Part shown: one piece after another, positions 9,334 through 31,754 of the stretch | How the letters are laid out: every line of letters begins with the position of its first letter | Position numbering within the stretch: position 1 is the first letter of the stretch | Origin: Candidatus Omnitrophota bacterium | GTDB lineage: Bacteria > Omnitrophota > Gorgyraeia > JABMRN01 > RBG-13-46-9 | NCBI GenBank assembly: GCA_016782445.1 | Contig: JADHYM010000013.1 | Span: forward strand, 1-36,761 | Reading direction: 5' to 3' | DNA: 36,761 nt | Made by a program: the position numbers and the translations under genes | Notes under the pieces: model-generated | Database searches by the model: none | What the model was told of the DNA's origin: nothing | The model's input: only the letters and a program-made list of their open reading frames with translations

Positions 9334-9390
9334 TCAATTCGCACTTATAACTTATGTCGCATGGCGTGCTCCATAAGTTATGTGCTCATT
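9334..9390 (-). repeat. Dispersed palindromic element, copy 1 (upstream of glpK)
   Basis: ATAACTTATG (9347-9356) pairs with CATAAGTTAT (9372-9381). Reverse complement shares AATGAGCACAT and ATAAGTGCGAATT ends with the element at 31062-31115. Confidence 0.6.
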
Positions 9391-9399
9391 GGAGAGCAT

Positions 9400-29211: not shown

Positions 29212-31062
29212 ATGAGCAGCAAGTTAAAAAAAGACCTAAAACTTCTCGATGTTTTCTGCATAGCCTCCGGAGCGATGATAAGCTCCGGTTTGTTTATCCT
29301 ACCAGGAGTGGCTTCCGGAAAAGTTGGCCCCGCTTTATTTCTTTCATACATCATAGCAAGTTTTTTTGCTTTGCCGGCTTTATTGAGCAAGGCAGAGCTC
29401 GCTACTGCCATGCCTAAAGCCGGAGGCGATTACTTTTTTATAACAAGAAGCATGGGCGCCGGCGTCGGGACGATCGGTGGGTCTGCGAGCTGGTTTTCTC
29501 TCTCCTTAAAAAGCGCTTTTGCCCTTGTCGGCATGGGCGCGTACGCCGCTCTCGTAATGAATGTTCCAATAAAGGCCATGGCTATAGGCTTTTGTGTTTT
29601 TTTTACGGGTATTAACATATTGGGCGTGCGCGAAGCCGGTAGATTTCAGAGGGTGCTTGTTCTGGGGCTAATTCTGGCGCTTATTCTCTACATAGTTCGC
29701 GGTTTCCCCGCGGTTGACATAAACCGCTTTGTTCCATTTGCTCCTTACGGGGAAGCGTCTATTTTTGCGACCGCGGGATTTATATTTATTTCGTACGGAG
29801 GGCTGACAAAAATAGCGAGCCTCGCCGAAGAGGTAAAGCATCCCGGCAGAAATATTCCCCTGGGCATGATACTTTCTATTATCGCGGTGGGCGTTTTATA
29901 TGCGCTTGTGGTTTTCGTTACCACCGGGCTCGTTGACCCGGGCATGCTTAAAAACTCGCTTACCCCCATATCAGACGGGGCGACCGCGTCCATGGGGAAA
30001 TTTGGGAACATCGTAATGTCAGTAGCGGCGCTTTTGGCTTTCATATCCACGGCGAACGCAGGCATTATGGCGGCATCGCGCTATCCCATAGCCATGTCGC
30101 GCGATAAGATCCTCCCGGATTTCTTCAATAAAATACACGAAAAATTCAAAACGCCGCACATATCTATTATCTTCACCTCTATTTTTATGGTCATTGCCAT
30201 AATTTTTCTGAATCTTGAAATGCTTGTCAAGGTCGCATCGACATTCCTGATCCTTCTTTATGTTTTTGTCAACCTGTCGGTTGTAATAATGCGCGAAAGC
30301 AAAATTCAGAATTACAGGCCGCGCTTCCGTGCACCACTTTACCCGTGGCTGCAGATCGCGGGAGTAATCTCAGGAATATTGTTGCTTTTCACAATGGGCG
30401 TTGAAACCTATGCCATAACGTGCATTTTTATCGCTTGCGGGTTTACCTGGTACATGATATACGTGCGTCCCAAGGTATCGCGCGAGTTCGCGCTAATCCA
30501 CGTTATACAAAGGATAACCGCAAGCGAAATTACGACGCGTTATCTTGAAACCGAGCTTAAAGGAATAATCAGGGAGCGCGATAATATTATCGAGGACAGG
30601 TTCGACCATTTGATAAAGGAATGCACCATACTTGACCTCCAAAAGCATTATACGATGGACGAATTTTTCAGAGAAACCGCGCGCGTTCTGGCTGGTGAGT
30701 TTGCGGCGGAGGAAGACGCGCTATATAATCTTTTAAAGAAAAGAGAAGCGGAATCAAACACTGTGATACGGCCGGGCCTTGCCATACCGCACATCATTGT
30801 TAAGGGTGAGGATAAGTTCAGGATTCTTCTCGCTCGGTGCAAGCATGGCATAACATTTCCGGGAGCGTCGAACGACGTACACATAGTTTTTGTCCTCGCG
30901 GGAACGAGGGACGAGAGAAACTTTCATTTGCGCGCGCTTGCCGCGATAGCTGAGATCGCGCAGGATGAGGATTTCGATAAAAAATGGCTCAACGCTAAAA
31001 ATAAGCACGAGCTTAGAGATATTATTCTTCTCGCAGAACGAAAACGCTGGAAGAAAAAATGA
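29212..31062 (+). CDS. APC-family amino acid permease fused to PTS EIIA type-2 (EIIA-Ntr-like) domain
   Basis: N-terminal SGAMISSGLFILPG, EEVKHPGRNIPLG; C-terminal NTVIRPGLAIPHIIV...VHIVFVLAGTRDERNFHLRALAAIAEI. Confidence 0.88.
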   Translation: MSSKLKKDLKLLDVFCIASGAMISSGLFILPGVASGKVGPALFLSYIIASFFALPALLSKAELATAMPKAGGDYFFITRSMGAGVGTIGGSASWFSLSLKSAFALVGMGAYAALVMNVPIKAMAIGFCVFFTGINILGVREAGRFQRVLVLGLILALILYIVRGFPAVDINRFVPFAPYGEASIFATAGFIFISYGGLTKIASLAEEVKHPGRNIPLGMILSIIAVGVLYALVVFVTTGLVDPGMLKNSLTPISDGATASMGKFGNIVMSVAALLAFISTANAGIMAASRYPIAMSRDKILPDFFNKIHEKFKTPHISIIFTSIFMVIAIIFLNLEMLVKVASTFLILLYVFVNLSVVIMRESKIQNYRPRFRAPLYPWLQIAGVISGILLLFTMGVETYAITCIFIACGFTWYMIYVRPKVSREFALIHVIQRITASEITTRYLETELKGIIRERDNIIEDRFDHLIKECTILDLQKHYTMDEFFRETARVLAGEFAAEEDALYNLLKKREAESNTVIRPGLAIPHIIVKGEDKFRILLARCKHGITFPGASNDVHIVFVLAGTRDERNFHLRALAAIAEIAQDEDFDKKWLNAKNKHELRDIILLAERKRWKKK

Positions 31063-31115
31063 ATGAGCACATGATTTACGCGACCAAAGAAAGCGTAAAT
31101 CATAGGTGCGAATTC
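31062..31115 (+). repeat. Dispersed palindromic element, copy 2
   Basis: GCAC-ATGATTTACGC (31067-31081) pairs with GCGTAAATCAT (31093-31103) and GTGC (31106-31109); ends shared with 9334-9390. Confidence 0.65.
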
Positions 31116-31386
31116 GCCCAGCACTAATTTTATGTATTATGTTTACGTTTTAAAATGTAAGGATAGAGAAGAATTGTACTATGGCTATAGCAGCGATATC
31201 GAGCGAAGGCTTAAAGAACACAATACATCCGGTAATTACGCATTAGTTTATTACGAAGCGTTTAAAAAAGAAAAAGATGTAAGATCTCGAGAGCAAAAAT
31301 TGAAACATTACGGCCAGGCAAGGACGCATCTTAAAAAAAGAATACATGAATCGATTAACGCATAAAATTAGTGCTGGGTCAATTCG
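31109..31386 (+). mobile_element. Putative miniature GIY-YIG mobile unit bounded by 26-bp inverted repeats
   Basis: Left arm 31109-31134 and right arm 31361-31386 are inverse complements at 24/26; ORF start and stop codons lie within the arms. Confidence 0.6.
31132..31365 (+). CDS. Small GIY-YIG endonuclease-domain protein
   Basis: MYYVYVLKCKDREELYYGYSSDIERRLKEHNTSGNYALVYYEAFKKEKDVRSREQKLK. Confidence 0.9.
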   Translation: MYYVYVLKCKDREELYYGYSSDIERRLKEHNTSGNYALVYYEAFKKEKDVRSREQKLKHYGQARTHLKKRIHESINA

Positions 31387-31413
31387 GCCTTGCAGAGAGA
31401 AATTCGAGGTAGA

Positions 31414-31453
31414 TGTAGTTATGAAAAATTTTCTGAAATTTTTCATAACTACA
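31414..31453 (+). other. 18-bp perfect hairpin in leader of RRM protein gene
   Basis: TGTAGTTATGAAAAATTT-tctg-AAATTTTTCATAACTACA. Confidence 0.85.
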
Positions 31454-31481
31454 GGTCTCATTGAAAGGAGGTGATTTAGAA

Positions 31482-31754
31482 ATGAAGAAACTTTATGTAG
31501 GCAATCTAAATTTTGACACAACCGAAGAGGATCTAAAGCAATTCGTAGAAGAGTTTGCCCCGACTAAGAGCGTTCAGATAATACGCGATAAATTCTCGAA
31601 TCGCTCGAAAGGATTCGGGTTTGTTGAAATAGAGTCCGATGACACTCAAGAGATCGTAGGAAAACTCAACGGTGCCGAATTCAAAGGAAGAAAGCTTCGC
31701 GTTGACGAGGCGAAGCCTTTGAAGAAGGATTTTGACGGCGGAAACAGAATGTGA
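31482..31754 (+). CDS. RRM-domain RNA-binding protein
   Basis: KKLYVGNLNFDTTEEDLKQF...RSKGFGFVEIE RNP1/RNP2; SD aaggaggtga; start chosen at 31482. Confidence 0.95.
   Translation: MKKLYVGNLNFDTTEEDLKQFVEEFAPTKSVQIIRDKFSNRSKGFGFVEIESDDTQEIVGKLNGAEFKGRKLRVDEAKPLKKDFDGGNRM

Follow-up and report, generated by a model that had tools for sequence, protein, structure and literature searches.

The GIY-YIG nuclease fold is known from homing, repair, restriction and retroelements. The element reported here is reminiscent in anatomy of REPIN/RAYT (TnpA-REP); both comprise small extragenic palindromes arranged as inverted pairs, numerous copies without an ORF and one associated nuclease gene flanked by palindromes. 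Folding into a hairpin or clover has been proposed for the REPIN/RAYT units (PMC3116915). However, our element encodes a GIY-YIG protein instead of an HUH Y1 enzyme, its gene is multicopy and bounded by arms, unlike RAYTs, which have been described as present in one copy and unable to move themselves, and target duplications are seen in the GIY-YIG elements. Miniature inverted-repeat elements (MITEs) and simple insertion sequences also have terminal inverted repeats, one ORF, short target-site duplications (TSDs) and gene-less derivatives with the same ends. They differ from the present element, which lacks a DDE, HUH, serine or tyrosine transposase, totals only ∼280–400 bp, has hairpin-forming ends and carries an ORF that reads into the repeat. 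A GIY-YIG endonuclease is likewise found in mobile Penelope-like elements, which need a reverse transcriptase; none is present in our element, which holds a single 77-aa ORF. Homing endonucleases of the I-TevI group have the same nuclease fold and a selfish setting, but the GIY-YIG element has no DNA-binding extension, intron or intein and is inserted as a whole unit with a duplicated target and its own arms conserved. The closest solved structures are those of the minimal, single-domain UPF0213 (YhbQ)/Slx1-like proteins (PMC1564403), although none of the 8 UPF0213-like ORFs in our tree has arms. The Tsy transposon (tyrosine recombinase, TnsF and GIY-YIG) also carries a GIY-YIG gene, but there the gene plays an accessory, non-essential part, and tyrosine recombinases carry out the movement (PMC10293859). 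The element is thus REPIN/RAYT-like in anatomy, MITE- or IS-like in its terminal repeats and TSDs and homing-like in its enzyme fold, and it fails a defining feature of each.

We found no earlier description of such an element in the open literature (the subscription literature and ISfinder were outside the scope of this search), and the literature found contains no DNA transposon with GIY-YIG as its only enzyme. The terms 'inverted repeat' and 'palindrom' are absent from the 2006 analysis of the GIY-YIG superfamily (PMC1564403).

Structure of the element and its protein

The window analysed here, a 36,761-nucleotide stretch of DNA, derives from an Omnitrophota MAG. A first-pass annotation had described in it a 278-bp unit in which a GIY-YIG ORF runs exactly from one inverted repeat to the other. 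The anatomy of this core was confirmed: the 26-bp arms (31109–31134 and 31361–31386) are inverse complements at 24 of the 26 positions with a perfect inner stretch of 18 bp (CCCAGCACTAATTTTATG), the ATG (31132) is the final 3 nt of the left arm, the TAA (31363–31365) lies within the right arm, and a 77-aa GIY-YIG ORF (PF01541, E=2e-11) is the only gene. The proposed extent proved too short. Structured hairpins directly outside both arms belong to the unit, and the element is therefore ∼407 bp in length rather than 278 bp. At the outer end of the 26-bp arms, CGAATT is part of these hairpins, and the arm proper begins at CCC. The features are as follows.

31059..31465, + strand: complete composite (outer hairpin, arm, ORF, arm, outer hairpin), ∼407 bp; boundaries by analogy with locus L028, the whole composite of which is missing from its orthologous empty site
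31059..31117, + strand: left outer hairpin P1, GAATT side facing the arm (outer stem, GA/GA, 4 bp, 2-nt bulge, 10-bp stem); match to model R1, 43.7 bits, E=2.7e-8
31117..31134, + strand: left terminal inverted repeat CCCAGCACTAATTTTATG, start codon inside; identical arm in all closest homologues
31132..31365, + strand: 77-aa GIY-YIG nuclease ORF; PF01541, E=2e-11; AlphaFold2 pLDDT 92; nearest solved structure, UPF0213 protein 1zg2
31361..31378, − strand: right terminal inverted repeat CATAAAATTAGTGCTGGG, stop codon inside; inverse complement of the left arm
31379..31465, − strand: right outer hairpin P1′ with an enlarged inner hairpin (31414–31453, 18 bp perfect); structural reading of the sequence, no significant R1 match
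9334..9393, − strand: another P1 in the window, adjoining an ORF-less hairpin (TCCTGAGG..CCGAAGGA; TCCTGAGGCACC..GGTGCCGAAGGA); R1, 60.2 bits, E=1.2e-12

The arm pair around the ORF is the strongest inverted repeat anywhere in the window, where the longest perfect inverted repeat (arms ≤400 bp apart) has a length of 18; in 100 Markov shuffles, this length averaged 12 and never exceeded 16.

P1 flanks each arm in inverted orientation and consists of an outer stem, a GA/GA mismatch, 4 bp, a 2-nt bulge, 10 bp, a second GA/GA and an apical stem. In an alignment of 19 copies, 96.6% of the pair cells pair, and two-sided changes were found at 16 of the 22 pairs, with 95 compensatory (two-sided) cells versus 2 one-sided cells. 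That one-sided (G-U) changes are so scarce suggests conservation of the structure at the DNA level. Regulation by P1 at the RNA level is not favoured, because the covariation is almost wholly two-sided. Rfam contains no family for this hairpin. Matches to the P1 model are present in 96 of the 147 genomes of the class, often at least 37 per genome, and P1 is abundant in some genomes without a close GIY-YIG relative (e.g. G020, G053 and G079). In the sub-lineage of the window, P1 accompanies the core when composites move. Units of P1 plus TCC..GGA, as at 9334–9393 of the window, occur in many genomes and may represent a separate palindromic family.

The encoded protein is a minimal, single GIY-YIG domain (AlphaFold2 pLDDT 92) in which the catalytic fold and residues are present. 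By sequence, its solved relatives are the UPF0213 protein BH0048 (1zg2, E=1.5e-6) and, weakly, SLX1 (7cq2, E=0.009); a fold neighbour is the catalytic domain of I-TevI (1ln0, TM 0.62 by query length). The protein matches PF01541 only, without any recognised DDE, HUH, serine or tyrosine transposase in the element. Searches of NCBIfam, PHROGs and PADLOC gave no match, and a scan of viral contigs confirmed nothing. Between most copies of different genomes, dN/dS is ∼0.04–0.11 (an estimate only, as dS, at >0.9, is near saturation) and the arm is unchanged. For a closely related pair in G040, dN/dS is ∼0.29, and two of the four copies in this genome are interrupted by stops. The ORF is thus under purifying selection. 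Together with the unchanged arms and the stop-broken copies, this is the pattern of a protein that is needed for spread and decays after insertion.

Distribution of the family and its ORF-less derivatives

Close homologues were found in 45 of the 147 genomes, and the nearest loci place the family mainly in Ca. Omnitrophota. Homologues with 47–59% identity lie at unrelated loci with the common arm ACCCAGCACTAATTTTA, and the closest homologues, from several families and again at unrelated loci, share the arm GAATTnnACCCAGCACTAATTTTA. The search for identical arms around divergent GIY-YIG ORFs, which had been proposed as a check, was thus positive in other genomes. Other protein clades have other arms (ACCCCCACACCAATTAT, ACCCCGCACC.., ACCCCGCCCTTTT and ACCCCACACCCAGCAATG), often still starting with ACCC. 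A flanking inverted repeat (≥13) was detected at 50 of 81 small GIY-YIG ORFs, and at 1 of 128 control ORFs that underwent identical processing; the GIY-YIG ORFs so bounded comprise 25 of the 27 in the clade of the window and none of the 8 in the UPF0213/YhbQ-like outgroup. A search with the DNA pattern arm-N215-245-arm, which is independent of the protein, identified 15 places in 11 of 386 genomes, whereas the reversed control pattern gave none, and a GIY-YIG ORF was present in each of the 11 loci that were translated. Such elements are also present in Patescibacteria, with 10–14 family members in two genomes (four genomes searched). Several genomes contain multiple copies, some of them broken by stops. 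From these sequence data, the arm-ORF-arm unit is a real family that occupies unrelated loci in many genomes.

At 51 places in 20 genomes, the same arms bound short hairpins that contain no ORF; the two forms occur together in 6 genomes (hypergeometric P=3e-6). Some of these hairpins are flanked by P1, and others stand alone. The arm family CCTTGACATTTT likewise has one ORF-bearing form in addition to ORF-less forms. In the genome of the window, at least five closely similar ORF-less repeats of ∼250 bp (L004–L008) are dispersed over contigs C11, C15, C19, C30 and C33, several at contig ends, and are centred on the CCCAGCACTTATTTT hairpin, which differs from the arm hairpin by one base. Some of these copies contain a 30-bp palindromic insert that others lack. 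An ORF-less composite (in G017) folds into three hairpins that abut directly, without any unpaired base in between (DNA energies, z=−10). The best reading of these derivatives is that they are MITE- or REPIN-like. Two ORF-less hairpins (L158 and L159) have a T-run after the arm and may serve as terminators. It had been stated in advance that arms occurring only as a terminator, without association with GIY-YIG genes, would refute the proposal of a mobile element; some ORF-less copies do look terminator-like, but the same arms flank GIY-YIG ORFs elsewhere.

Insertion, rival explanations and proposed mechanism

Many of the genomes compared are incomplete MAGs. A precise empty site was identified: contig C12 of G068 contains a whole composite with (A)GGAGG on both sides, and the orthologous site of the congeneric genome G043 is empty (..AATAAGGAGGAATTATG..). 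Conversely, a second copy in G043 is missing from the orthologous site of G068. For the window copy, the permease to radical-SAM junction is direct in two relatives (G007 and G001), without the element and without the RRM gene. This RRM gene (31482–31754), located downstream of the element, is missing from the junction of the relatives, and the element is therefore not the only gain in this region. L063 and L059 were left out of the evidence, as neither has a cleanly empty orthologous site. The L058 site in G043 was rejected as an empty allele, since a different ORF-less element is present there. At this orthologous Shine-Dalgarno site, an ORF-less CCCGCC-type element (L084) and an ORF-bearing CCCAGCCC-type element (L058) occupy the sister genomes G043 and G068, which suggests a target hot spot or element turnover with re-use of the site.

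TSDs, another proposed check, were present in both simple and composite elements. In simple elements (without P1), a TSD of at least 3 nt at the exact CCC/GGG edge was found in 10 of 21 versus 3.0 in permutations, and one of at least 4 nt in 8 versus 1.3 (P<5e-5). These duplications are ∼3–6 bp in length and include TGGTAG, TTGA (twice), TGAA, ATGA and CTTG. Among the composites, 12 of 46 have a TSD of at least 5 nt (3.6 expected, P<2e-4), and their flanks often start with GGAGG, so that insertion recreates a ribosome-binding site. TSDs are absent or undetectable in approximately half of the copies, including the window copy, for which the duplication remains unresolved (AAA/GAAA only).

The arms at unrelated loci, the empty sites and the TSDs together support the original proposal of a miniature mobile element, and it is very likely that these units are a family of mobile elements; mobility is strongly supported, and no movement was observed. 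The 'domesticated' alternative offered with it is not favoured, because the copies lie scattered and stops interrupt some of them. The same observations bear on the idea that an ordinary host gene lies between terminator-like palindromes or regulatory hairpins, with arms that act in RNA and nothing that moves. The UPF0213/YhbQ family does include ordinary chromosomal genes without arms, and the T-runs of L158 and L159 would suit such a role, but the arms enclose the ORF and do not merely end it, the same arms recur across several families and phyla at loci that are unrelated, and P1 has almost no one-sided (G-U) changes, which points to a DNA rather than an RNA structure. As TSDs and empty/filled site pairs also contradict this explanation, we regard it as very improbable.

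Two other explanations accept mobility and assign it differently. A GIY-YIG homing gene may have invaded pre-existing CCCAGCAC..GTGCTGGG hairpins, in which case the arms would be the split halves of its target and the ORF-less hairpins its empty homing sites. The common arms of the ORF-bearing and ORF-less forms, the resemblance of the fold to I-TevI and the split site of 34–36 bp, a typical length for a homing target, are consistent with this. Yet empty sites lack any palindrome (plain AAGGAGGAATTATG in G043), so that the intact, conserved cognate target expected in empty alleles was not met and the arms are missing there; the TSDs lie outside the arms; and no allelic pair with and without the ORF was found. 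Moreover, arms are retained within a protein clade, whereas homing endonucleases do not recognise the ends of their own element (PMC1564403), and homing is in our judgement unlikely. An equally doubtful account treats P1 as REPs moved in trans by a Y1 (HUH) transposase, with the GIY-YIG core as a passenger or a REPIN parasite. The P1-X-P1′ arrangement resembles a REPIN, inverted pairs of palindromic units were found, P1 is far more numerous than the GIY-YIG genes, and Y1_Tnp genes are present in 119 of the 147 genomes. Against this, 11 genomes with at least five P1 copies have no Y1_Tnp match (e.g. G060 with at least 37, G106 with 26 and G068 with 22), P1 numbers correlate better with GIY-YIG copy number (rho 0.39) than with Y1 number (0.19; not phylogeny-corrected), simple GIY-YIG elements have inverted repeats and TSDs without P1, and intact cores occur in P1-free genomes. 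A RAYT/Y1 mobiliser is thus not favoured on co-occurrence.

Our preferred reading, to which we assign a probability of roughly 0.68, is a miniature transposon-like element whose sole protein, a stand-alone GIY-YIG (UPF0213/Slx1-like) nuclease, mobilises it. Catalysis of movement by the encoded enzyme is inferred: that the nuclease is its own mobiliser by a transposon-like route appears reasonably probable, but this rests on association, namely on the cognate arms and on selection. Whether it is a lone GIY-YIG transposase in the strict sense is evenly balanced. The same even odds apply to the broader proposal of an undescribed class of autonomous DNA transposon of ∼280–400 bp, perhaps among the smallest, that would use GIY-YIG as its transposase, recognise its ends as abutting DNA hairpins and spawn REPIN-like non-autonomous families across Omnitrophota and Patescibacteria.

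Under the preferred reading, the nuclease would recognise its own arm palindrome, and possibly P1, as branched or hairpin DNA, either single-stranded or extruded; recognition of its own hairpin-forming ends is inferred because the arms go with the protein clade. It would cut at the CCC/GGG edges, and a short staggered cut would be made in an A/G-rich target, often a Shine-Dalgarno sequence or a stop codon. GIY-YIG enzymes act on DNA by hydrolysis, and no strand transfer by them is known. Joining is for this reason probably left to the host, whose repair and ligation would finish the reaction and create the duplication. Intergenic insertion would be benign, because the short duplication restores the Shine-Dalgarno sequence or the stop codon. 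ORF-less copies may be moved in trans. If the nuclease does mobilise the unit, it would represent a new enzyme class for transposition and offer a mobiliser for those palindromic repeats of bacteria whose spread is unexplained, and the unit would rank among the smallest mobile elements that are self-contained. Many genes annotated as 'GIY-YIG family protein' in candidate-phyla genomes would have to be read differently. The idea is directly testable with one 77-aa protein and two 18-bp ends.

Other GIY-YIG loci

A second GIY-YIG ORF, truncated at its 5′ end and located at the contig start, is present at 7–159 of the window; it belongs to another subfamily (..SGRAFLRRRLMAA) and is followed by GGCGAAG-type palindromic repeats. 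Elsewhere in the same genome (G000, C27:23650–24784), three small GIY-YIG genes (L010, L012 and L014) are interleaved with tRNA genes. One tRNA-like copy in this region is split by nested palindromes, and L014 lies between perfect 24-bp inverted repeats. In a member of the Jorgensenbacteria (L136), the CCCAGCACTTA arm is kept, and the outer hairpins are very different in sequence but similar in shape. At L047 and L050, the GIY-YIG ORF runs on, in the same frame, into a pilin-like N-methylation motif (SLTGFTLVEIM..); an element may have landed at the beginning of a pilin gene and thereby fused the two.
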